NCBI GenBank assembly: GCA_007133065.1 | Contig: SLNJ01000009.1 | Location: forward strand, 1-64,000 | DNA from: Opitutales bacterium | GTDB taxonomy: Bacteria > Verrucomicrobiota > Verrucomicrobiia > Opitutales > Oceanipulchritudinaceae | Length of the DNA stretch: 64,000 nucleotides | Reading direction: 5' to 3' | Shown here: positions 12,120 to 24,075 of the stretch, piece by piece | Layout of the letters: each line of letters opens with the position of its first letter | Position numbering within the stretch: position 1 is the stretch's first letter | The notes under the pieces: model-generated | What the model was told of the DNA's origin: nothing | The model's input: the letters and a program-made list of their open reading frames with translations, nothing else | Databases searched by the model: none | Program-made: the position numbers and the translations under genes

Positions 12120-12953
12120 TCAGGCCTGGCGTTCCAACCCGAGCAGATCGGCCGGGTTGTCGCGCGTCATCTGTTGAATCGCGGCATCCGGAATGCCGCG
12201 ATCGACCAGGTGGGCGATGGTTTTGTCCCACACCACATTCCAGGGTGGATTCTCGACCTGGCCGGCGTCGGAAGCGAGAATGGTCGACTCAGGGCCAAGG
12301 GTTTCGATGGCGCGGATGTTGGCGTCGCGATTGCACTGGTACCGTCCGCCGCCCAGCGGTTGGGCGTAGCATCGCTCGAAGCGAACGGGCCCGATGCCGC
12401 TCAGCTCTTCCTGCTGGGCGAACGTGAGACCCGTGACCCTGTGTTCAGGATGGTTGATAAGGATTCGGCGCACCCCTTCGGCCGCCGCAACATCGACGAC
12501 GCGAAAGATCGCCTTGGGTGCAATGTGTCCGGTTGCGAGGACTGCTTCGGATCTCGCGATGAGGCGGCAGATCCGGCGGAGCAGGCAGCTTGATCCGCGA
12601 TCGTGCGGGATTTCGATTCCTCCGGGTGTTCCTTCCATGGCGCGGTGGTGGGCCGCGTCCAGCGTCGGCATCCACACGATTTTCGCGCCCATGGCGAGCG
12701 CGGTTGCTACCGCATCCGGGTTGAGCCCGCCGACCGTGGAATTGAGCACGATTCCTCCGAATACCGCCACCTCCGGGACCACGCGGCCTGCGAGGTCGGC
12801 GCGGCCCATGGTCGGGAAGTAATGGTGCTTGACGACGACGGCCCGGGCGCGGGCGCGGCGCGCGAGACGGGCGAGGTCGATGTCGTTGTGGCGGCGGGGG
12901 CGCACGTCGGGACTCGTGTGAACGTGCAGGTCAATCAATCCCTCGTGTTTCAT
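12120..12953 (-). CDS. DUF6282-like metal-dependent hydrolase (amidohydrolase type)
   Basis: The 277-residue protein begins with LIDLHVHTSPD, the HxH metal site of amidohydrolase/PHP-type TIM barrels, followed by a KHH motif (VVVKHHYFP), a possible bridging Lys with further ligands. Later motifs are ATGHIAPKA, LINHPEH and the C-terminal Asp-containing ILASDAGQ. This order fits an amidohydrolase-like barrel of the DUF6282 group, which is largely uncharacterised. An AGGAGG ribosome-binding site precedes the ATG and the gene abuts the preceding dehydrogenase stop. It is the last gene of the catabolic island; hydrolysis of a lactone, amide or cyclic intermediate is a guess. Confidence 0.75.
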   Translation of the reverse strand: MKHEGLIDLHVHTSPDVRPRRHNDIDLARLARRARARAVVVKHHYFPTMGRADLAGRVVPEVAVFGGIVLNSTVGGLNPDAVATALAMGAKIVWMPTLDAAHHRAMEGTPGGIEIPHDRGSSCLLRRICRLIARSEAVLATGHIAPKAIFRVVDVAAAEGVRRILINHPEHRVTGLTFAQQEELSGIGPVRFERCYAQPLGGGRYQCNRDANIRAIETLGPESTILASDAGQVENPPWNVVWDKTIAHLVDRGIPDAAIQQMTRDNPADLLGLERQA

Positions 12954-14051
12954 TCAACCTCCTCCTGGCTGGCGCACGCGTTCGGCGATCCCCCGGGCGC
13001 ATTCCATCGTCCCGGCGGGGCCGCCCAGATCGCGCGTGCGCAGCGTCGGTTCAGCCAGCGCAGAGCGGACAGCTTCCTCCACGGCGTCGGCGCGATCCGC
13101 GTGACCGAGGTGGCGCAGCATGAGTGCGCCGGAGAGGATGAGGGCGGCTGGGTTGGCGAGTCCCTTGCCGGCGATGTCGGGGGCGGCGCCGTGGGATGCC
13201 TCGAACACGGCGCATGCGGGTCCGATATTCGCGCCGGGGGCGAGCCCAAGGCTCCCGGCCAAACCGGCGGCCAGGTCGGAGAAGATGTCGCCGTACTGGT
13301 TGGGACAGACCACGACGTCGAAGCGTTCCGGAGATCGGATGATATGAAAGCAGGCGGCGTCGATCATCAGGTCGTCGGCCTCGACGTCGGGAAATTCCGC
13401 CGCGACCTCGTGAAAGCATCGCAGGAAGAGCCCGTCCGTCATGTTCAGGACGTTGGCTTTGTGGAGGCAGGTGACGCGCCGGCGTCCGTTGGCTGCGGCG
13501 TAGTCGAACGCGTAGCGCGCGACCCGCAGCGAGGCTTCGCGGGTGATCCGTTTGACCGCTTCCGCCGCCAGATCCCCGATTTGGTGCTCACGGCCAAAGT
13601 ATATATCCTCGGTAATCTCCCGCATGGTCACCAGGTCCAACGCCTCATATTTTTCCGAGATCCCCGGAAATCCACGGATGGGGCGGGGGTTGACAAAGAG
13701 CGCGAGCTCCCGCCGGATTGCATTGTTCAACGACGGATAGCTCATCTCGCTGCCGTCGGGCTGGCGGCATGTGATGCGCCCTTGGAGTTTGTTGACAATG
13801 AGGGGCGCCTTGAGAGTGACGCGCACCTCCCGGAGCGATGCAACCGATTCAGGGGGCAGGGGATGTTCGTGGCGCTCAAATGCCTCGTCGGCGATCGGGA
13901 TTGGAATCCACTCGATCGGGAGTCCGGTTGCCTCGAGCACGTATTGGGCGGCCTCGGTGATCTCCGGTCCGATTCCATTGCCCCGGATCACGCCGACCTG
14001 TTGCGTTTCCGAGGGCGAGGCGCTTGCGGGGGGGGCGTTTGAACTCGACAT
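12954..14051 (-). CDS. isocitrate/isopropylmalate dehydrogenase family protein
   Basis: This 365-residue protein is a beta-decarboxylating dehydrogenase. It starts with GVIRGNGIGPEI, carries the substrate segment SYPSLNNAIRRELALFVNPR, the Lys of CLHKANVLNMTDG, and the metal-binding YGDIFSDLAAGL. The SLN motif and the paired Arg residues resemble NAD-isocitrate dehydrogenases more than LeuB. Because it sits among catabolic genes, a tartrate-, malate- or isopropylmalate-like 2-hydroxy acid is possible, oxidised and decarboxylated with NAD(P). The real substrate cannot be read from the motifs. Confidence 0.85.
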   Translation of the reverse strand: MSSSNAPPASASPSETQQVGVIRGNGIGPEITEAAQYVLEATGLPIEWIPIPIADEAFERHEHPLPPESVASLREVRVTLKAPLIVNKLQGRITCRQPDGSEMSYPSLNNAIRRELALFVNPRPIRGFPGISEKYEALDLVTMREITEDIYFGREHQIGDLAAEAVKRITREASLRVARYAFDYAAANGRRRVTCLHKANVLNMTDGLFLRCFHEVAAEFPDVEADDLMIDAACFHIIRSPERFDVVVCPNQYGDIFSDLAAGLAGSLGLAPGANIGPACAVFEASHGAAPDIAGKGLANPAALILSGALMLRHLGHADRADAVEEAVRSALAEPTLRTRDLGGPAGTMECARGIAERVRQPGGG

Positions 14052-14063
14052 AGAATTCGTGAT

Positions 14064-14738
14064 TCAGGCGCCGGGGCCGGTTGCTCCGAGTCTTGTGAGA
14101 AGATCCCCGACCGCGGACGACGCGCTCGTCAGGACGGGTGTCGACCCCGGGCAGGCCCGCTCGAGGGCGCGCGCCATCGACACCTGTGCCAGGACCACCA
14201 CGTCGGCTTCCGCGGCGATCGCCTCCAGTTCCCGGACGATCGAGGCATCGTGTTCCTGGGGCCTCCCGGCGCTGAGAGCGGCGAAGGCGCCCGCGACCAC
14301 GCGTGAGTTGACGGTGATGGAGCGATCCGTCTCCCGCGCCGCGGCGACGAGGGCCGCGCGGGTGGTCTCGGCGGCCTTGGGCAGGGTTGCAAGCACGCCG
14401 ATCCTGTCGCCGCGCGCGATCGCCTTCCGCAGCATGGCGCGGTCGATGGGGATCACCGGAATGCCGAGCTCGGACTCAAATCCGGCAGCCATCGGGGTGG
14501 CGATGGAGCAGGTGAGGAGAATCCCGTCCGCACCGTCGGCGCGGGCGCAGCGCAACCATCCGAGAATCCGGGTCTCGATTGCGCGGAGCTCCTCATCGCC
14601 GGTCGCCTCGTGCCCGACCACCGCCCCCTCGTCGAGGTAGTTGCGAACCACCGCGCCGGGAGCCCGCCGCCGGATTTCGTCCAGCACCGGCGCGACGGCG
14701 TTGAGCGTCGCGTGGAATAGAGCCACGTGCGGTTTCAT
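14064..14738 (-). CDS. aspartate/glutamate racemase-superfamily protein lacking one catalytic Cys
   Basis: The 224-residue protein has the two-domain Asp/Glu/hydantoin racemase fold: start KPHVALFHATLNAV, the loop ILLTCSIATPMA with Cys77, GIPVIPIDRAML and GRGDRIGVLAT-like phosphate-loop region. The second half has VVVLAQVSMARA where racemases normally have a second catalytic Cys; here Gln-Val-Ser is found. With one Cys it may be a decarboxylase, isomerase or degenerate member rather than a true racemase. It overlaps the Gfo/Idh/MocA gene by four bases (ATGA), so the two are coupled. Confidence 0.75.
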   Translation of the reverse strand: MKPHVALFHATLNAVAPVLDEIRRRAPGAVVRNYLDEGAVVGHEATGDEELRAIETRILGWLRCARADGADGILLTCSIATPMAAGFESELGIPVIPIDRAMLRKAIARGDRIGVLATLPKAAETTRAALVAAARETDRSITVNSRVVAGAFAALSAGRPQEHDASIVRELEAIAAEADVVVLAQVSMARALERACPGSTPVLTSASSAVGDLLTRLGATGPGA

Positions 14739-15739
14739 GCGGTTTCAGCGGATTCGTACGCGTCGAACACGAGGTCTACGGTGGCGAGGTAGTCGTGTCC
14801 ACTGGTTTCGAATGGCACGCCGGAGCGCAGTGCTTCGATAAAGTGCGATTGGGCGGCGACCACGCTCCCTCCCCTGTACCCGGGTGGGATGGCGTAGTCG
14901 TGGCGGTGCCGCGGGCCGTTGCGTGGCTCGATCTCGATCGCGCCGTCCGATCCGGCATGTAGCACGCCCTCCGAGCCATCGATGTGCATGAAACCGTTGA
15001 ACGGCGATCGCACCTCTGGAAAGGGCGCGGCGCGATTGGCGTCCCAGATCACCGGCACGCCGCTCTCAAAGTTGAGTACGATCAATGCCTGGTCCTCTCC
15101 GGCGATCTCCGGATTCCGCCTGCGAACCGTGCAATACATCGATTGTACCGGCCCGAAGAGATACCGCAGGGTGTCGATGTAGTGGATGCCGGTCTCCAGC
15201 AGGAGGAATCGCTTCATCTCCCGGAAGTACGGTTGCCGCGCGTAGGCATCCGGTCCCCATCCGTCGCCGGTCCGCATTGCGAGGTAGGCGCCGAACGGCC
15301 GGCCGATGCGGCCGGCGTCGAGTATCTGTTTGATTTCCCGATACCAGGCCTGCCAGCGCCAGTTGTCGTTGATCATGAGCGGCACATCGCGGTCCGCGCA
15401 GTACCTGACGAGTGCGTGGGACTCCTCCCGTGTCGGGGCGATCGGTTTCTGGCACAGGATTGGAATCCCGCGGTCCCCGGCGAGCCGCACCATATCGAAG
15501 TGCGTTTCCATCGCCGTGCAGACATCGACAAAGTCGGGCTTCAGGGCATCCATCATCGCTCCGGGGTCCTCGCCGGTGTGAGGAATATCGAACCGCGCGG
15601 CGAGTTCCTCCGCCCTCCCGCGCGTCCGGTTGCAGATTCCGGTGATCGCTGCGCCGGGTACGTCCCGCCACCCTTCGATCTGAATGGCGGCAAACTGTCC
15701 GGCGCCGAGGAAAAGTCCTTGGTACGTTTGTTCTGCCAT
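14735..15739 (-). CDS. Gfo/Idh/MocA-family oxidoreductase
   Basis: From the ATG giving MAEQTYQG the protein has 334 residues. The Rossmann start LFLGAGQFAAIQIEGW leads into the catalytic segment ILCQKPIAPT, where the family usually reads EKP; the Lys is kept and Glu is replaced by Gln. The second domain has ETGIHYIDTLRYLFGP with the expected His-Asp of the active site. Such enzymes oxidise or reduce sugars, inositols or sugar acids with NAD(P). An in-frame start 45 bases upstream would add a tail with no relation to the family. It is the first gene of the right-hand part of the island after the inserted nucleotidyltransferase. Confidence 0.88.
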   Translation of the reverse strand: MAEQTYQGLFLGAGQFAAIQIEGWRDVPGAAITGICNRTRGRAEELAARFDIPHTGEDPGAMMDALKPDFVDVCTAMETHFDMVRLAGDRGIPILCQKPIAPTREESHALVRYCADRDVPLMINDNWRWQAWYREIKQILDAGRIGRPFGAYLAMRTGDGWGPDAYARQPYFREMKRFLLLETGIHYIDTLRYLFGPVQSMYCTVRRRNPEIAGEDQALIVLNFESGVPVIWDANRAAPFPEVRSPFNGFMHIDGSEGVLHAGSDGAIEIEPRNGPRHRHDYAIPPGYRGGSVVAAQSHFIEALRSGVPFETSGHDYLATVDLVFDAYESAETA

Positions 15740-15887
15740 CGAAGATTTCAGTGAAGCGGAATTCCGGGGCAAACCGCAACCCAATTGGCTGGTGGAAGGG
15801 GCGCCGGGTGTGGAATTTTTATTTGGACGGCGGTGCGCGCCTCCGGAAAAGACTTGGAACGGAGATTCGAACGGGTATCGTTGCGCT

Positions 15888-16451
15888 GTGGATTTTCTCC
15901 GGGTTATAGAGACGGTTGCCGGTGAAATGGAGGCGCAGGGGATTCGATATGCCTTGATCGGCGGATTTGCTATGGCACTCCGGGGCGTTCAGCGTGCGAC
16001 GATGGACATGGATTTCATCCTCATGATGGAGGATCTCGATCGTGCTGACAGGATTATCTCCGAAGCTGGATTCCAGCGCGCGTTTTGCAGCGAGAACGCA
16101 TCCTCCTATGTCTCTGAGGATCCCGCACTCGGGCGGCTCGACATCCTGCACGCGTTCCGCGGCCCGACGTTGAGTATGTTGGAGCGCGCGGATCGGATCG
16201 CGGTGTCCGGGACGCTCGACCTTCCGGTGGTGCAGTTGGAGGACATTGTCGGCCTGAAGGTTCAGGCTTCGGTGAACGATCCTGCGCGTGCGACGAGTGA
16301 TTGGGCGGATATTCGATTGCTGATTGAAGACCGCGCGCAACGCGGGGCACCGGTTGACTGGGATCTGATCGCCGATTACCTTGAGATCTTCGGGCTGCAG
16401 TCCGAGTTGAACGATATGCGTGCATGGTATGGCTCGGTTGACCCCAGTTGA
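15888..16451 (+). CDS. AbiEii-like nucleotidyltransferase-fold protein
   Basis: The 187-residue protein (GTG start; an ATG at 15927 is an alternative) has the minimal nucleotidyltransferase core: YALIGGFAMALRGVQRATMD followed by MDFIL, with the GG pair near 25-26 and Asp40/Asp42 as metal ligands. The C-terminal part (LEDIVGLKVQASVNDPAR, DWADIRLL) is the helical region found in AbiEii/AbiGii-like and DUF6036-type proteins. It lies on the plus strand in the middle of an otherwise minus-strand catabolic island and overlaps a small gene by 23 bases. A toxin-antitoxin or defence role is suggested by family, not shown. Confidence 0.8.
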   Translation: MDFLRVIETVAGEMEAQGIRYALIGGFAMALRGVQRATMDMDFILMMEDLDRADRIISEAGFQRAFCSENASSYVSEDPALGRLDILHAFRGPTLSMLERADRIAVSGTLDLPVVQLEDIVGLKVQASVNDPARATSDWADIRLLIEDRAQRGAPVDWDLIADYLEIFGLQSELNDMRAWYGSVDPS

Positions 16452-16635
16452 GAAAGCGGAGATGCGGCGGGTGGCGAATGCGCTGCACTTCCGGTCGACG
16501 CTCCCCCGCAGTCCAATGGTGATGCCGCTCACAACGGAGGCCCGGGAGCGGTATTGCCGGTGGGCGGCGCGTGCAGCGCGATTTTGCAAGGGATCAAAGC
16601 CGATCCGATTCGGCGGTGACAACTGGAGACTGTAG
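16429..16635 (+). CDS. small partner protein of the nucleotidyltransferase, unknown function
   Basis: This 68-residue basic protein (ATG at 16429; GTG at 16420 possible) starts inside the nucleotidyltransferase gene. It has a helical N-terminus (RLTPVEKAEMRRVANAL) and a conserved-looking C-terminus with Trp, Arg and Cys (YCRWAARAARFCKGSKP, GDNWRL). The overlap indicates translational coupling and a functional partnership. There is no HEPN or classic antitoxin motif that I can recognise. Confidence 0.6.
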   Translation: MARLTPVEKAEMRRVANALHFRSTLPRSPMVMPLTTEARERYCRWAARAARFCKGSKPIRFGGDNWRL

Positions 16636-16684
16636 GGAGCGGCTGCGCCGCCCGGGCCGGGAGCCGGGTCCGGTCCGGCCATAG

Positions 16685-16769
16685 GTTGACCGTTTGGCAC
16701 CCGTCGCTCCCGCTGACCCACCAACCAGCACGATCACAACCAGCCCAAAAAACCAAAAACACGGTCAAC
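16685..16769. repeat. separated 9-bp inverted repeat between convergent genes
   Basis: GTTGACCGT at 16685-16693 and ACGGTCAAC at 16761-16769 are perfect inverted copies 67 bases apart, between the end of the small partner gene and the end of the iron alcohol dehydrogenase gene. The stretch between them is A/C-rich with runs of A. It may be a relic boundary of the inserted module or a long-loop hairpin; nothing else supports a mobile element. Confidence 0.35.
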
Positions 16770-16854
16770 TTTTAGCCAGGACTCGACACTCCCTCCGTCT
16801 CCCGATCCGCCTCCTCCGGCCTACTTTACGGCTCACGCCTATTGCCGAAGCACG

Positions 16855-18015
16855 TTACCAGGCATCGCGGTAGATTTGAACGATCTCATCGGCTGTGGGG
16901 ACGCGCGGGTTGTTGGCTGGGCTGCCGGAGGCGAGGGCGTCCTCGGCCATCTTCTGGAGATGTTCTTCGAACCGTTCGGCGTCCACTCCCCGGCATTCCT
17001 GCAGGCGTGGGACGCCGAGAGCCTGGTTGAGCTGCTCCAGCCACGACACGAGCTTACCGGCCGCCGCTGCATCCGTGTCGGTGTTGTCGGCACAGCCGGC
17101 GCACCGGGCGGCTGCGGCGTAGCGTGCGGTGCCCTCGGTGATGGAGAACCGGGTGACAGCCGGAAGGAGGACGGCGTTGGAGAGGCCGTGAGGCAGGTGA
17201 AAGAGGGCGCCGATCGGACGACTCATCCCATGGACCAGGCAGACGCTGCTGTTCGAGAAAGCCATCCCGCCCTGGCAGGCGGCCAGCATCATCCCCTCGC
17301 GTGCCGGGCGGTCGTTCGGGTCCGTCCATGCCCTCAGAAGATGTTTCGAAACCAGCTGGATACAGGAGAGGGCGAGCGGATCGGTCTGTGCGTTCGCTTT
17401 GGCGGAAACATAGGCCTCCAGTCCGTGGGTCAGCGTATCGACTCCCACAGCGGCGGTGAGCGCCTGCGGCATGGTCAGAGTGAGCTCGTAATCGACGACT
17501 GCGGCAGCTGGAAGCAGTGGCCTGCTAAGCATCATCATCTTGACTGCGTGCTCGGTGTCGGTGATCACCGCAACCTTGGTCGCCTCGCTTCCGGTTCCCG
17601 CGGTGGTCGGTACCGCAATAACGGGTACTCCAGGCCGCGTGATCTTGTGGAGCCCCATAAAGTCGGAGAGTTGACCGGGGTTTTCGGGGACGACGGCTAT
17701 GACTTTGGCGGTGTCGATGGGTGAGCCGCCGCCGACCGCCAGGATGAGGTCGGCGCCGGACTTCTCCAGCGCTCTGACACCCGCCGTCACATTGTCGACG
17801 GTCGGATCGGGGTGAACGTCGTCGAAAACGGTGGTTTCCAGGCCTGCCTTGTGCAGAAGGGATTCCATTTCCTTCACGACGCCCAGGGCGACAACACCCG
17901 GATCGGTTACGATCAGGATGTGTTGGGCTCGAAGGAATCCGATCAGCTCGGGGAGGCGCTGTCGTGCGCCACCGCCGTGAAGAATCGTTCCGGGGCAGTC
18001 AAATTGATGTATCAT
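16855..18015 (-). CDS. iron-containing alcohol dehydrogenase
   Basis: The 386-residue protein is a group III alcohol dehydrogenase that interconverts an alcohol and an aldehyde with NAD(P). Visible are the nucleotide motif VGGGSPIDTAK, the phosphate-contact segment PTTAGTGSEATK, and the metal ligands in GVDTLTHGLEA and in VHGMSRPIGALFHLPHG, which provide Asp and three His residues. Length is normal. It starts six bases after the mmsA stop, so the two are one transcript: reduction of the semialdehyde, or its production from an alcohol, could be balanced against oxidation by MmsA. Confidence 0.93.
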   Translation of the reverse strand: MIHQFDCPGTILHGGGARQRLPELIGFLRAQHILIVTDPGVVALGVVKEMESLLHKAGLETTVFDDVHPDPTVDNVTAGVRALEKSGADLILAVGGGSPIDTAKVIAVVPENPGQLSDFMGLHKITRPGVPVIAVPTTAGTGSEATKVAVITDTEHAVKMMMLSRPLLPAAAVVDYELTLTMPQALTAAVGVDTLTHGLEAYVSAKANAQTDPLALSCIQLVSKHLLRAWTDPNDRPAREGMMLAACQGGMAFSNSSVCLVHGMSRPIGALFHLPHGLSNAVLLPAVTRFSITEGTARYAAAARCAGCADNTDTDAAAAGKLVSWLEQLNQALGVPRLQECRGVDAERFEEHLQKMAEDALASGSPANNPRVPTADEIVQIYRDAW

Positions 18016-18021
18016 GTCGGG

Positions 18022-19509
18022 CTACCATCCGAGTTTGCGGGAGTACTGGTCGTCCCACCGGCTGAACACAACCTTTTGGCGGGTATAGAAGAGGAGGCCT
18101 TCGGTGCCCTGCACGTGCAGATCGCCGAGGAAGGAACGGTTCCATCCTGAAAAGGCGAAGACGGACATCGGGGCAGGGACGCCGACATTGATTCCGATCA
18201 TGCCGCACGGCGCCTCGCGCGCGAACGTGCGGGCTGCGCCGCCATCCTGCGTGAATATGACCGCGCCATTGCCGAGGCCGGAACTGTGCATCCAGGCCAT
18301 GGCGTCGTCCAGCTGCTCCGGGCGTCCCATGGAGAGGATCGGACCGAACAGCTCGGTGCGTGCGACGGCCATCTCCGGTTCGACACGATCGAGGAGCGTG
18401 GGGCCCACAAAGAACCCGCGCTCCGGAAGCGCGCGGCGCCGGCCGTCCCGGAGAACCTGCGCGCCCTCACCGGCGGCGTTCTCGATCGCCTGCCGGAGGC
18501 GGTCGCGCGCGGCGCCGTCAATCACCGGTCCCATGTCGCTCTCGGGGTGCCGGTCGGTCGGGAGCACCTTCATCCGGTCGATGGCCTCGGTCAACCGCTG
18601 CGAGAGGGTGTCTCCCGCTTCGCCGACTCCAAGGACAACGGATCCGGCCATGCAGCGTTGTCCGGCGCAGCCGAATCCGGCGCCGATGATGGCTCGTATG
18701 GTCGGGTCGAGGTTCGCATCCGGCATGACGAGCATGACATTTTTGGCGCCGCCGGCTGCCTGGACCCGTTTCCCATGGTGGGTGCCCAGCCTGTACACCT
18801 GTTCCGCCACGGCGGACGATCCGACGAAGCTGACGGCGGCGATGTCCGGATGGGTGCAGAGGCGTTCGACCACCTCGCGTCCCCCGTGAACGAGGTTCAG
18901 CACGCCCTCGGGCAGTCCTGCCTCCATCGCGAGTTCGGCGAGCCGGATCGCGGTGAAGGGAACCTTCTCGCTCGGTTTCAGAATGAAGGTGTTGCCGCAG
19001 ACGATGGCGAGCGGGAACATCCACATCGGAACCATGGCGGGAAAGTTGAACGGGGTGATTCCCGCGCAGACACCGATTGGTTCTCGGGTTGATGAGCCGT
19101 CCATGGCTTCACTGATGAGCGGGAGGGTCTCACCCTTGAGCGTGTGGGAGGCGGCGCAAGCGAACTCGACGACCTCGATCCCGCGCCGCAGGTCTCCCTG
19201 GGCTTCGGAGAGCGTCTTTCCGTTCTCCTGCGTGATGAGTTCGGCGATCTCGTTGAACTTCGCCTCGAGCAGCTCCTTGTAGCGGAAGAAAACCGCCGTC
19301 CGCTTCGGGATGGCAGTGCGGCTCCACGACGCAAAAGCCTCTTTGGCGACGGAGACCGCCGCGTCGACCTCGTCGGCCGGTGACGCGGGCGTACGGGCGA
19401 TAATCTCGCCAGTGGAAGGGTTGTGGACGTCGGTGAATACCGTGGCGCGCGAAGCCCGATTCTCGCCGCCGATCCAGTTTGAAAGAGTGGGGATGGATTC
19501 GTTTATCAT
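18022..19509 (-). CDS. mmsA: methylmalonate-semialdehyde dehydrogenase (CoA-acylating)
   Basis: The 495-residue enzyme converts methylmalonate or malonate semialdehyde, NAD and CoA into propionyl- or acetyl-CoA. It has the segment ITPFNFPAMVPMWMFP, the nucleophile Cys286 in GCAGQRCMA, and the MmsA-specific C-terminal stretch VPAPMSVFAFSGWNRSFLGD and FYTRQKVVFSRW. In place of the general-base Glu of hydrolytic aldehyde dehydrogenases it has the Asn-containing GGAKNVML, as CoA-dependent members do. The same family is IolA in inositol use and MmsA in valine use. Here it probably closes the pathway of the surrounding island. Confidence 0.95.
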   Translation of the reverse strand: MINESIPTLSNWIGGENRASRATVFTDVHNPSTGEIIARTPASPADEVDAAVSVAKEAFASWSRTAIPKRTAVFFRYKELLEAKFNEIAELITQENGKTLSEAQGDLRRGIEVVEFACAASHTLKGETLPLISEAMDGSSTREPIGVCAGITPFNFPAMVPMWMFPLAIVCGNTFILKPSEKVPFTAIRLAELAMEAGLPEGVLNLVHGGREVVERLCTHPDIAAVSFVGSSAVAEQVYRLGTHHGKRVQAAGGAKNVMLVMPDANLDPTIRAIIGAGFGCAGQRCMAGSVVLGVGEAGDTLSQRLTEAIDRMKVLPTDRHPESDMGPVIDGAARDRLRQAIENAAGEGAQVLRDGRRRALPERGFFVGPTLLDRVEPEMAVARTELFGPILSMGRPEQLDDAMAWMHSSGLGNGAVIFTQDGGAARTFAREAPCGMIGINVGVPAPMSVFAFSGWNRSFLGDLHVQGTEGLLFYTRQKVVFSRWDDQYSRKLGW

Positions 19510-19584
19510 GGAATACTCGTTTGTCGGTGGTTTGATACAGGGGTCTTCGCGGGTCGGAGTGAGTCCGGAGCAAACGCTACGGGG

Positions 19585-20646
19585 TCAGAACACGCCGGCG
19601 CGTTGTTCGTAGTGGGTTGGCTTATCGTAGGCGGGGAGGTTATTCCGGATCCAGTGGGCGTTCCAACGGATCATGGTGTCCAGATCGACGCAGGTGGAGC
19701 CGAAGAGGTGGTGTGCCTGGGAGGTGTCGTTGTGCCAGGCGGTCGGTTGTTCCTCGCCTTCAATGACCGGTTCTTTGTCGAATGCCCGGCCAAACGCTGT
19801 CGCAATGTAGCGAACCTGTGCCGGTTCACGCATCCCGATATTGATCGGCGTGGCGGGAACGGTTCCGTGCAGGAGGCAGCGCAGGATGTGGGCGGTCGAT
19901 TCTCCCTGCCAGATGACATTCGCCACGCCGGTCCGGATATCAATCGGTTCCTCGTTCCAGACCTGGAGTCCAATGTCGCGGAGCACGCCGTACCGCAGGT
20001 CGATCGCATAGTTCAGGCGGGCGAGTCGACCGGGGTTGTTGTTGCGTTCGGAGTAGTATTGAAAGACCCGCTCGCGCCCGACGCACGAATTTGCGTATTC
20101 CCCGACCGGGGTGGGAGGCGTGCGTTCGTCGCTCCCCGGCCCGGCGACCTCTGTAAACGGGTAGACGCACAGGGTCGAGAACGCGACGAACCGCGTCTCA
20201 CGGAAGCGCTCTCCGACTATCGTCGGGACGATCGCGTTCATGGCCCAGGTGTACGGCTCCTGACCGGCGGTCCCGAATTTCTTCCCGGCCATGTAAACCA
20301 GGTTCGGTAGGTCGGGAAGCGCCTGTACCGCCTGCCGGTCGAGCAGATCGCAGACGATGGTCTCCACTCCGGCCGATTCGAGGGTATCGCGAACACTCGG
20401 ATCGGAGAAACGGGCCACCCCGATGACCCGTTTCGCTGGTGCGGCGCGCTTCGCCATCATCGCCAGGGTGGGCCCGACCTTGCCGCCGACGCCCAGGATC
20501 ATAATGTCTCCGTCAAGCTTCCGGAAATCCTCGACCAGGCCTCGCGTCGGCGTGGAGAGGAGCCGGTCGAGTTGTTCGACGGACTCGATGGTCTCGGGGA
20601 GTGTCCGGTCCTCGAGGACCGTTTCGGTTTTTGATGGTTCGCTCAT
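19585..20646 (-). CDS. NAD-dependent epimerase/dehydratase family protein
   Basis: Counting from the ATG giving MSEPSKTE, the protein has 353 residues. A Rossmann fold of the extended SDR type begins after about 45 residues (IMILGVGGKVGPTLAMM), an atypical glycine pattern for the family. FVAFSTLCVYPF holds the Ser/Thr before the catalytic YxxxK, and EYANSCVGRERVF stands in the position of that motif but with C-V-G-R instead of the usual YxxxK order, so catalysis may differ. The C-terminal half (NEEPIDIRTG, INIGMREPAQVRYIA) is substrate-binding. It lies between mmsA and a DHDPS-type aldolase gene; a sugar or sugar-acid substrate is likely. Confidence 0.8.
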   Translation of the reverse strand: MSEPSKTETVLEDRTLPETIESVEQLDRLLSTPTRGLVEDFRKLDGDIMILGVGGKVGPTLAMMAKRAAPAKRVIGVARFSDPSVRDTLESAGVETIVCDLLDRQAVQALPDLPNLVYMAGKKFGTAGQEPYTWAMNAIVPTIVGERFRETRFVAFSTLCVYPFTEVAGPGSDERTPPTPVGEYANSCVGRERVFQYYSERNNNPGRLARLNYAIDLRYGVLRDIGLQVWNEEPIDIRTGVANVIWQGESTAHILRCLLHGTVPATPINIGMREPAQVRYIATAFGRAFDKEPVIEGEEQPTAWHNDTSQAHHLFGSTCVDLDTMIRWNAHWIRNNLPAYDKPTHYEQRAGVF

Positions 20647-20681
20647 GTTAGATTGGGGGAAATCGTTCGCACGTAAGCGAC

Positions 20682-21758
20682 TCAATCGTCCAGCCATTGG
20701 TCGAGGTTCTCGCGGACGAAATCATCGTCGGTGAGGTGCGGGTAGGCGGCGCAAACGCGGTCGATATCCTCCAATTGCCCGGGGGAGAGCACCTCTTTCG
20801 GTTTCAGTGTCTCGATTCCGGGGAGCAGGCCCTGGCGGCGCAGCACCTCGTTGACCCCGGGGATACTGCCGTCGAAGTGGTTAATCGCATCGAAAAGAGC
20901 GCCGTTCGCGTCGGTCAACTCGGCGGCTCGTGTCAGCCATTCAGCTGGGATCGGGTCGCCTGTTTCGACGAGCCGGTGGATATCGTCGAGCATCTCCACC
21001 GCGCGGCGTGTCCAGCAGGCCCACTGTCCGAGCAGGCCCCCGCGGATGCGGATGGTTTTGTGTTCGCCGTTGACCTGGAAACGGAAGGGCGTGATCAGAT
21101 CGTGGATAATGCTGTCGTCGTTGCCTGTGTAGAGGGTGATTGCATCCTCCTTGCCGGCCTCGGCGATCGCTCGGCAGACGTCGATCGTGTAGTAGCGGTT
21201 GAACGGGGCGATCTTGATCCCGTGGACGTTGTCCATCTCGGCCAGCTCGCGCCAGAAGGAGAATGTAAGAGGCATGCCGATGTCGGCAAAGATGATGTAG
21301 AATCCGAAGAGCGGGATGACCTGGGAGATCTCGCGCAGGTGATGGAGCATCTGTTGTTCGAGGCATCCCTTGAAGTTGGCGACCGCGACGATCCCGTAAT
21401 CGTATCCGAGGTCCCGCGCGGTTTCGGCCTGAGCGATGGCGTCCGGCGTCGAGCCTGCGATTCCCGCGATCTTGGCAACGGTCCGACCGCGTGCCGATGC
21501 CTGTGCGTCGATCGCCTCGGCCGAGGTTTTCAGGACCGGGTGAAACAGGTCGATTCCGGGGAGTCGAATCTCGAACTGTGTGAAGTGCATCCCCACCGCC
21601 ACGGCGCCGGCGCCGGCGTCGACGTAGTAGCGCATGAGCGCCCGCTGGTACCGCTCGTCGAAGCGCCGGGCGGCGTTCAGTGCCAGCGGTGCGGCCGGAA
21701 TGACGGTTCCGCGGCGGATGATTTCCCGGACGGCTGGTGAGATCGAGGAATCAGGCAT
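20682..21758 (-). CDS. dihydrodipicolinate synthase-family aldolase/dehydratase (1)
   Basis: This 358-residue TIM-barrel protein is longer than the usual 290-300 of the family. The Schiff-base Lys is probably Lys182 in NVHGIKIAPFNRYY, with Tyr154 in FGFYIIFA as the expected catalytic Tyr. The start lacks the common GSTGE glycine motif; VGMHFTQFEI stands there, so the substrate pocket differs from DapA. The role is likely cleavage or dehydration of a 2-keto acid. About 35 bases separate it from the epimerase gene on the same transcript. Confidence 0.85.
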   Translation of the reverse strand: MPDSSISPAVREIIRRGTVIPAAPLALNAARRFDERYQRALMRYYVDAGAGAVAVGMHFTQFEIRLPGIDLFHPVLKTSAEAIDAQASARGRTVAKIAGIAGSTPDAIAQAETARDLGYDYGIVAVANFKGCLEQQMLHHLREISQVIPLFGFYIIFADIGMPLTFSFWRELAEMDNVHGIKIAPFNRYYTIDVCRAIAEAGKEDAITLYTGNDDSIIHDLITPFRFQVNGEHKTIRIRGGLLGQWACWTRRAVEMLDDIHRLVETGDPIPAEWLTRAAELTDANGALFDAINHFDGSIPGVNEVLRRQGLLPGIETLKPKEVLSPGQLEDIDRVCAAYPHLTDDDFVRENLDQWLDD

Positions 21759-21972
21759 GATGAAACGTGATTATACAGGTTGGATAAGACGACGCCGAGA
21801 TTACGAAGGGCAACCTGGAAGCAACCCATAACGTGCTATAGATCGAGGCAAGCACAATGTGAGGATGCGGTGCCTGGCGTGTTTCGGGCATGGTTGCCGA
21901 TTCGATTCCCTGCATCGCCGATCTACGAACGGGAGTGTGTACCGGGATGGACGCTTCGAGTGAAGTGACGGA

Positions 21973-22983
21973 CTAAGCTAAATAGCCCTTTCGCAAGAGG
22001 AGATCGTGGCGTCTCAGAATCGATTCGCAATCCGCTATCACCTCGGTCGGAAGTGGCTCTCCTCCGTGGAAGCGGGGCGGAGGCGCCGTTTGCCATTGCG
22101 TGCCGTAGGCCATGAGGTGGTCCATGCATTTCGCGGAATTGCTGAACATGTTGCCGCGCGGTAGATCCGCCACCACCGCCAATGCGGACTCGATCGCCTC
22201 CGAGAGGCGTTGACTCAGGTCGCGCGCCGAATCCTTGTCCGTTGCGGAGAGCGCGATGACGCATTCGAGCTCGCCGGCCATCCAGTTGGCCGTGCTGAGC
22301 AGCAGCCCGTCGTAGGGACCGCCGTTGTCGGACAACGCTTCGAAGTAGCCGCCTTCCGCGCCGCGCATCGTGAAGACGCCGCCCAGATCCACGCCTGATC
22401 CGCAGACGGCATCCCGTCCGCTGCTGTCTTTGAAAAGGATGAAATTTGAAAATCGTCCGGCCAGAGCGGCGATTGTCTCCGGGGCGATCTCGTTGCGGGT
22501 GACCTGGGGCAATTGGTATATTGCGATCGGATGTCCGGTTTCGAGCAGGCGTACGAGACCGTGTTGGATCGCCTCCTGTGATTGACCGTCGCCTGACGGC
22601 CCGCAGACCGTAAATCCGCGGAATGTGCCGGGGCCGGCGGGTTGGTTGAGGCTCTTCGTCCACTCTTCGATGGCGCGTCGTTCTGCGTCCACGTCGGGCG
22701 CCAGCACGCCGATCAGGAGGTGGACTCCGAGGCTTGCGAACGTCGGGAGGAGCAGCTCGACGGTTTCGCGTTGCTCGCGGGCGCTCATCTCCCATGCGTC
22801 ACCGGTCGACCCCGGAACGAGAAATCCTCTCACCCACTGCGTGAGATGGCGCAGATGTGCCTGAACCCGTTGCCGGTCTATGGAACCGTCAGGGTGGTAG
22901 TGCATGATCGGTGGGCACCACAGACGCGGCGGGCCGCCCTCAAACAACCCGTGAATCCATTCGATTCGTTGCTTCTCATTCAT
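21973..22983 (-). CDS. dihydrodipicolinate synthase-family aldolase/dehydratase (2)
   Basis: The 336-residue protein has GFLVPGSTGDAWEMS, the pyruvate-binding GSTG loop of the family, Tyr156 in IAIYQLPQ, and Lys185 in FILFKDSSGRDAV as the Schiff-base residue. It is a more conventional member than the neighbour at 20682-21758, and the two share little beyond the fold. It starts six bases after the Gfo/Idh/MocA gene ends. Two different Schiff-base aldolases in one cluster suggest two successive keto-acid steps or two related substrates. Confidence 0.88.
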   Translation of the reverse strand: MNEKQRIEWIHGLFEGGPPRLWCPPIMHYHPDGSIDRQRVQAHLRHLTQWVRGFLVPGSTGDAWEMSAREQRETVELLLPTFASLGVHLLIGVLAPDVDAERRAIEEWTKSLNQPAGPGTFRGFTVCGPSGDGQSQEAIQHGLVRLLETGHPIAIYQLPQVTRNEIAPETIAALAGRFSNFILFKDSSGRDAVCGSGVDLGGVFTMRGAEGGYFEALSDNGGPYDGLLLSTANWMAGELECVIALSATDKDSARDLSQRLSEAIESALAVVADLPRGNMFSNSAKCMDHLMAYGTQWQTAPPPRFHGGEPLPTEVIADCESILRRHDLLLRKGYLA

Positions 22984-22989
22984 AACGCT

Positions 22990-24075
22990 TCATCCCTGTG
23001 CCCAGTCCATCGGCGACGGGGAGGGGAAGGAACTCGTGACCTCGACGGCGAGCCCGCTGTCACCGGATTTGAACATCGCCTCGATCACCTCGACGACGTG
23101 AGCGGCCTGAGCTCCGGTGGCACGGTGGGGGCGGTCGTGCAGGATCGCGTCGGCAAGATCCTGAATGCCTCGTCCGAACTCGATTCCTTCGAACGGCTCG
23201 CGGAGGAGCGGCACCTCGCTGAACTTCTTCCCCGGCGTACCCAATGCGCAGTATTCGACTCCGGCGCCGAAACTCTGAAAATCCTTCACCACGAGAGAAC
23301 CTTCGTCGCCGTGGAATTCGATCGCGCCCCCTTGTTTGGATGCGGCGACGTAGAAGTTGGCTGAGAGGCGAACGACCGGGCCTGCTTCGAGTTCGAGAAA
23401 TGCGAGGTAATATGTCGGTTTGCCGGGCGTGAACGTGCTGCCGTCTTTCTTGATGCGTTCGGGCTGGAGCATTGCGGAGTGACAGGTCACCCGGCGCACG
23501 GGTCCGAACATCGTGGTGATGTTCGTCAGGGGATAGACTCCGACATCGAACATCACTCCCACATCGTAGAATGGCTCGGGGTTGGGGTGCCAGGCCTCGA
23601 TCTTGCCGTGGTTGATCTCCGCGTAGATCAGACGCACCTCGCCGCACTTGCCTTCACGGATCTGCTTCCAGGCGGTTTGGACGGTCTCGCCCATGTAGGT
23701 GATGGGTGCGCTGCTCAGGCGCAGATTCTTGCGATCGGCCAGTTCGACGAGTTCGCTCGCCTCGGCGTATCTCAGCGCGATCGGTTTCTCGGTGTGCACG
23801 TGCTTGCCGGCCTCCAGACACTGACTGATGACGTCATAGTGTGCATGGTGGATTGTCAGGTTGACAACGATGTCCACGGTGTCATCGGCCAGGGCATCCT
23901 CCAGCGAGGCGTAGACCGTGCCACCGAATTCGCCGGCGAATGCCTTCGCCCGGTCGATGTCGAGGTCGAATGCACCGGTGATGGTGAGATTGTCGTAGGA
24001 AGCGATGTGCTTGCCGTACTTGTTCGCGATATTGCCGCAACCGATAACGGCTGCTCCGAGAGTTGTATTGGCCAT
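22990..24075 (-). CDS. Gfo/Idh/MocA-family oxidoreductase, first gene of catabolic island
   Basis: The 361-residue enzyme starts with AAVIGCGNIANKYGKHI (NAD site), has HTEKPIALRYAEA with the catalytic Lys of EKP, and the second-domain segment FDVGVYPLTNITTMFGP. It would oxidise a sugar, polyol or sugar acid with NAD(P). It is the promoter-proximal gene of the minus-strand island. A TACAAT hexamer upstream resembles a -10 element but no -35 fits at normal spacing. Its sequence is clearly different from the second family member at 14735-15739, so the two probably act on different intermediates. Confidence 0.9.
   Translation of the reverse strand: MANTTLGAAVIGCGNIANKYGKHIASYDNLTITGAFDLDIDRAKAFAGEFGGTVYASLEDALADDTVDIVVNLTIHHAHYDVISQCLEAGKHVHTEKPIALRYAEASELVELADRKNLRLSSAPITYMGETVQTAWKQIREGKCGEVRLIYAEINHGKIEAWHPNPEPFYDVGVMFDVGVYPLTNITTMFGPVRRVTCHSAMLQPERIKKDGSTFTPGKPTYYLAFLELEAGPVVRLSANFYVAASKQGGAIEFHGDEGSLVVKDFQSFGAGVEYCALGTPGKKFSEVPLLREPFEGIEFGRGIQDLADAILHDRPHRATGAQAAHVVEVIEAMFKSGDSGLAVEVTSSFPSPSPMDWAQG

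Follow-up and report, generated by a model that had tools for sequence, protein, structure and literature searches.

The 64,000-nucleotide stretch analysed here (hereafter the window; contig SLNJ01000009.1, assembly GCA_007133065.1, an Opitutales bacterium) carries between positions 12120 and 24075 ten intact open reading frames, all on the minus strand, which an earlier note made from the sequence alone had read as a single catabolic island. This ten-gene run is two separate conserved operons with a private two-gene add-on. The first operon, core A (21758-16855), encodes a lyase of the dihydrodipicolinate synthase fold (DHDPS2), a short-chain dehydrogenase/reductase (SDR), a semialdehyde dehydrogenase (MmsA) and an iron-containing alcohol dehydrogenase (FeADH). 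The second, module B (15784-12120), encodes a Gfo/Idh/MocA dehydrogenase (Gfo2), a racemase-like protein, a dehydrogenase of the isocitrate dehydrogenase (IDH) type and a DUF6282 hydrolase, while the add-on (24075-21973) consists of Gfo1 and DHDPS1. We put at about 0.5 the probability that the stretch combines, as a mosaic, catabolic blocks independent of one another, in an Opitutales-type metagenome-assembled genome (MAG; 3.68 Mb in 162 contigs) rich in sulfatases, with core A serving a sugar acid and module B standing apart from it. Gene content, family membership, gene order with its conservation and conserved active-site residues are observed; every substrate named below, like any link between A and B, is inferred. 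The families that the earlier note had assigned all stand, domain and curated-model scores being in agreement.

The division is visible in the layout. Gfo1 and DHDPS1 are 6 bp apart and are followed by a 214-bp gap before DHDPS2, while FeADH and Gfo2 are separated by a 1.07-kb break containing, on the opposite strand, a lone gene for an AbiEii-like nucleotidyltransferase that belongs to neither block (15927-16451, plus strand; Pfam AbiEii, 28.0 bits); the earlier note had mentioned neither the 214-bp gap nor the break with its gene. The break with its opposite-strand gene and the gap between the DHDPS genes probably delimit two or three transcription units. Scans for consensus promoters and terminators returned nothing above chance, and the limits of the operons are therefore drawn from spacing and comparison. 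With a fairly even GC content over the region (0.59-0.69), composition marks no clear border. Comparison separates the blocks likewise: core A is present in a genome without a DUF6282 match (G018), and module B in one whose FeADH homologues do not exceed 35% identity (G369). No genome with both was found in a limited sample, in which two carriers of core A (G489 and G496) lay outside the DUF6282 search. A single ten-gene route is not supported, given the separate occurrence of A and B elsewhere and the restriction of Gfo1-DHDPS1 to the window's genome within the sample. As a set the ten genes are scattered and do not co-occur, which the earlier note had named as refuting its reading, whereas those of A and those of B, each taken singly, keep together.

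Core A and its probable acyl-CoA end

Core A begins with DHDPS2 (20682-21758, 358 aa) and continues with an extended-SDR-like protein that lacks the YxxxK lysine (19585-20697, start maybe 20646), the CoA-acylating (methyl)malonate-semialdehyde dehydrogenase MmsA (18022-19509; TIGR01722) and FeADH (16855-18015), which has the Asp and His metal-ligand motifs. DHDPS2 and SDR overlap or leave a short gap, SDR and MmsA are 75 bp apart, and MmsA and FeADH 6 bp. All four genes recur in identical order, at 61-70% identity, in two genomes from another family of the same order (G496, locus L218; G489, L219). In G018 (L015) the arrangement is rearranged to SDR-MmsA-FeADH, a classical SDR, a TIM barrel, a heparinase-like protein and DHDPS2. 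A member of the window's own family, G016 (L016), has the SDR, residues 1-50 of MmsA fused to an FeADH-like end, and a classical SDR; this fusion (G016:C155, ~13370-13540) could mark a deletion in an ancestral copy that had the core A arrangement, or else an error of assembly, and a search of that genome gave no FeADH match at E<=1e-30. Parts of the core occur in G421 (L221; MmsA-FeADH beside genes whose sequences read as an FGGY-like kinase and a class I-type aldolase), G480 (L220; MmsA without partners) and G251 (L089; DHDPS2-SDR only). Among 177 genomes of the order, MmsA orthologues at 59-67% identity are found in five others, the next copies being ~55% identical and lower. The SDRs of the window, G016, G018, G251, G489 and G496 form one clade with support 1.0, as do the DHDPS2 proteins of the core A loci where present. 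Core A is probably an operon of four genes that takes a sugar acid to acetyl-CoA.

LacI-like genes adjoin the SDR or lie no more than a few kb from the core in L015, L016, L218 and L219; relatives of a TIM-barrel isomerase stand in L015, L218 and L219, and symporters recognised as SSS-like by sequence in L218 and L219. The window copy has no LacI-like, TIM-barrel isomerase or SSS-like gene beside it, and the TIM-barrel and symporter partners have no close relatives elsewhere in the window's genome (best 28% and 25%). As the earlier note had observed, and called odd for a catabolic operon, neither a transporter nor a regulator is among the ten genes; this is a peculiarity of the window's copies, since relatives of A have the LacI-like and SSS-like genes and relatives of B carry a GntR gene together with either an ABC transporter of the Opp type or a MatC carrier. 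The name 'heparinase-like' for the 592-aa protein of L015 is a label read from its sequence, as it has no Pfam match; it also has no match in the window's genome.

MmsA scores 607.5 bits against the curated methylmalonate-semialdehyde dehydrogenase (MMSDH) cut-off of 448.5, and has the active-site motif GQRC at 283, in which an Arg precedes the catalytic Cys, and an upstream Arg motif, RRGIE, at 108. FeADH adjoins MmsA in six loci (L015, L218, L219, L221, L232, L233); in Acinetobacter the pair is accompanied by a GntP permease and IclR, in Rhodococcus by LysR, and FeADH-MmsA recurs as a unit of two genes in other phyla too. Published clusters for dimethylsulfoniopropionate (DMSP) link the alcohol dehydrogenase DddB with the methylmalonate-semialdehyde dehydrogenase DddC, which together convert 3-hydroxypropionate via malonate semialdehyde (PMC9327192, PMC4994080, PMC8163506), and the MmsA enzymes of Cupriavidus take malonate and methylmalonate semialdehyde alike (PMC6572756). 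By analogy with DddB-DddC, the recurrent pair indicates that core A most likely ends in a conversion of a hydroxy-acid through a semialdehyde to acetyl- or propionyl-CoA. The SDR without its lysine and the lyase of the DHDPS fold, an old pair that occurs widely, would convert the sugar acid and then cleave or dehydrate it; FeADH would oxidise the product set free, a C3 or C4 hydroxy-acid or aldehyde, to the semialdehyde of malonate or methylmalonate, from which MmsA, judged by its family and the recurrent pairing, would form acetyl-CoA or propionyl-CoA and CO2. A catabolic role with sugar-acid-type enzymes and an acyl-CoA end, as the earlier note had proposed, is in line with these results, the end being supported by MmsA and FeADH.

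The direction assigned to FeADH could be the reverse. DHDPS2 might release pyruvate and an aldehyde such as lactaldehyde, whose reduction to a diol by FeADH would serve as an electron sink while MmsA oxidises another part. Lactaldehyde reductase and 1,3-propanediol dehydrogenase are indeed among the relatives of FeADH, and verrucomicrobial methyl-pentose routes yield lactaldehyde (PMC8857213). However, MmsA passes the MMSDH cut-off and is tied to carboxylated semialdehydes, FeADH-MmsA stands alone as a pair in Rhodococcus, and no microcompartment shell genes are among the ten, so that we consider a reductase unlikely, if the strongest of the competing explanations.

A widespread SDR-DHDPS2 gene pair

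The first two genes of core A belong to a much wider family of gene pairs, which is the truly uncharacterised part of the stretch. The SDR is present in 96 of 388 Verrucomicrobiota genomes, and 48 of the 59 loci examined have both SDR and DHDPS2; the window's genome itself possesses one more pair, of the ordinary kind, on a different contig (L017). Beyond the phylum, annotated pairs occur in Bacillota, Actinomycetota, Planctomycetota and Alphaproteobacteria (Paenibacillus, Mesobacillus, Streptomyces, Aquisphaera, Tistrella, Nitratireductor), where they are often flanked by carbohydrate ABC or tripartite transporters, Gfo genes and sugar isomerase genes. The wide pair is more often neighboured by TetR, M20, aminotransferase or dehydratase-like genes, to which core A adds MmsA and FeADH; the SDR and DHDPS2 of core A are, in their trees, a supported subclade of the wide family. 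Beside the ordinary pair in L019, L020 and L101, an SSS-like symporter, a ~666-aa heparinase-like protein and a class III aminotransferase-like gene recur.

Y-x-x-S-C in place of YxxxK, the altered catalytic motif that the earlier note had spotted in the SDR, is what most of the family has: the lysine is absent in all 22 aligned members, and this absence is a family-wide trait and not specific to the window. The SDR has no Pfam match; its profile best matches TerB (6d2v/6nd7, 56.9 bits) among solved structures, and a single-sequence structure model (pLDDT 33) was not used. The Pfam matches of the two window DHDPS proteins are weak (23.4 and 33.0 bits; PF00701 cut-off 22.1), and in DHDPS2 the Schiff-base Lys182 and Tyr154 are invariant in 16 sequences. 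Searches of the open-licence literature found no paper on the pair, none on a combined Gfo/DHDPS/MMSDH pathway in Verrucomicrobia, and no exact match to a described pathway. It is possible, though we hold it only tentatively, that core A constitutes an undescribed pathway in which the SDR and a divergent lyase of the DHDPS fold turn a sugar acid, perhaps freed by polysaccharide lyases in view of the heparinase-like genes close to some relatives, into a C3 hydroxy-acid that reaches acetyl-CoA via FeADH-MmsA, without kinases or phosphorylated intermediates. The wide pair would then represent such chemistry in general form in several phyla.

With the ten-gene run now split into testable units, the real unknown is this widespread and apparently unstudied pair, whose SDR occurs in about a quarter of the sampled Verrucomicrobiota genomes and which also turns up in no fewer than four major groups of bacteria besides. 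Core A gives the pair a readable end product, and a coupled assay could therefore reveal its substrate.

Module B, the private block and an improbable single pathway

Module B is composed of Gfo2 (14735-15784, start maybe 15739), an Asp/Glu-racemase-fold protein with the first catalytic Cys only (14064-14738; Pfam 55.7 bits), the IDH-type beta-decarboxylating dehydrogenase (12954-14051, 365 aa; Iso_dh 305 bits) and the metal-dependent DUF6282 hydrolase (12120-12953), neighbours overlapping or standing at most 12 bp apart. An Opitutaceae MAG (L051/L086) has in one run Gfo2 (55% identical), the racemase-like protein (36%), an IolO-like TIM barrel, IDH (68%) and DUF6282 (45%), accompanied by a divergent GntR gene and an Opp-type ABC transporter. 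A second MAG (L088) has the IDH-DUF6282-transporter portion, and in Fusobacterium a MatC-type dicarboxylate carrier accompanies DUF6282 and IDH, together with a GntR gene. One Fusobacterium record (NZ_CP084075.1, L046) is classed as a plasmid and carries a single annotated feature; its size of 2.1 Mb suggests a chromosome.

DUF6282 (PF19799; 207.2 bits, gathering threshold 26.8) was found in 19 of the 388 genomes, and its motifs HVH or HIH, GH, NH and SD are invariant; a search of open-licence papers on the family found nothing. Its structure model (pLDDT 78) is an amidohydrolase-type barrel, the top PDB matches being lactonases (TM 0.6-0.7, 12-14% identity). Gfo2 is closest to an oxidoreductase (5uhw/5ui9; 197 bits, next best 61), the source organism of which is Agrobacterium radiobacter (PMC7535918). 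The best solved structures for the IDH-type enzyme are NAD-isocitrate dehydrogenases, and in the racemase-like protein, correctly described as a one-Cys form in the earlier note, Cys76 is kept and the second Cys replaced (AQVSMA), likewise in its relative. We take 5uhw to be a D-apiose dehydrogenase. These family assignments fit a route in which Gfo2 would oxidise a sugar to a lactone, DUF6282 would open it to the acid, and the IDH-type enzyme would then oxidatively decarboxylate a hydroxy-dicarboxylate.

The add-on comprises Gfo1 (22990-24075, 361 aa; Pfam 90.7 bits, EKP lysine kept) and DHDPS1 (21973-22983, 336 aa; Pfam 33.0 bits), which keeps the Schiff-base Lys185 and Tyr156. DHDPS1 has no relative at E<=1e-15 in the 387 other Verrucomicrobiota genomes and a single one in the plasmid collection (Methylobacterium nodulans, 42%), where the relatives of Gfo1 are only distant (~36% identical). 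The block would be a local addition, private to the window's genome within the sample.

All ten genes could still form one pathway, in which the Gfo enzymes and the hydrolase start, the aldolases cleave, and MmsA and FeADH finish. The genes are contiguous and co-oriented, the chemistry is compatible, and the opposite-strand AbiEii-like gene could be a late insertion. Against this stand the separate occurrence of A (G018) and B (G369), the private nature of DHDPS1 and the 1.07-kb gap with its opposite-strand gene between A and B, which make a common pathway improbable.

The mosaic of independent blocks has weaknesses of its own. The window's module B has only four genes and misses the TIM-barrel gene that lies between racemase and IDH in L086, and the lactonase activity of DUF6282 depends on a fold match at 12-14% identity. 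The SDR-DHDPS2 pair has no known substrate, lactaldehyde reductase among the relatives of FeADH allows a reductase role in core A, and the view of a single contig from a MAG cannot show expression.

Known systems and sulfatase genes

Core A is close to DddB-DddC of the dddBCDRT clusters, in that an alcohol dehydrogenase gene adjoins an MMSDH gene (6 bp apart here) and the acyl-CoA end is probably alike, the two being likened by family and adjacency and not by sequence. In contrast to those clusters, the ten genes include no DMSP lyase, DddD CoA-transferase, DddR or DddT (the rest of the genome was not searched for them), and the partners in core A are an SDR and a DHDPS lyase. That core A degrades an osmolyte yielding 3-hydroxypropionate, such as DMSP, instead of a sugar acid is very improbable: the resemblance of FeADH-MmsA to DddB-DddC is outweighed by the fact that none of the ten genes encodes a DMSP lyase, class III CoA-transferase or BCCT carrier, by the constancy of the SDR and DHDPS partners, and by the carbohydrate ABC transporters and Gfo genes that flank the wide pair.

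With IolA of inositol catabolism and the MmsA of pyrimidine, valine and beta-alanine catabolism, the window's MmsA shares its family and a likely reaction. Unlike in those systems, no iol, val or pyrimidine genes stand beside it: IolB, IolC, IolD, IolE and IolJ are absent from the ten genes, and both Gfo proteins score far below the IolG cut-off (94.5 and 60.6 vs 355). The MmsA copies of the order whose neighbours appear, by sequence, to be pyrimidine-like (L222, L223, L225) or inositol-like (L224) are only ~53% identical. For module B, a further comparison is offered by D-apiose catabolic clusters with an ApsD-type Gfo. A Gfo2 relative in Paracoccus (36.5%) is found with a phosphogluconate-dehydrogenase-C-terminal protein, a four-carbon acid sugar kinase and a ribose-type ABC transporter; module B lacks all of these partner genes.

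Cytoplasmic sulfatases were considered as what might join A and B. The copy beside A (L016) and that beside B (L051) share 60% identity, but the subfamily is found in 53 of the 388 genomes in varied settings, so that the link is unspecific and was rejected. The window's genome has a clear orthologue, next to a Gfo and a lactonase-like gene. At G000:C66:31166-34955 (L108/L109) of the same genome, Gfo, lactonase-like and sulfatase genes form one run, in which the sulfatase, apparently without a signal peptide as far as can be read from its sequence, is 54.5% identical to the L051 sulfatase beside module B. The genome as a whole is sulfatase-rich, one sulfatase query giving 46 matching stretches over many contigs.

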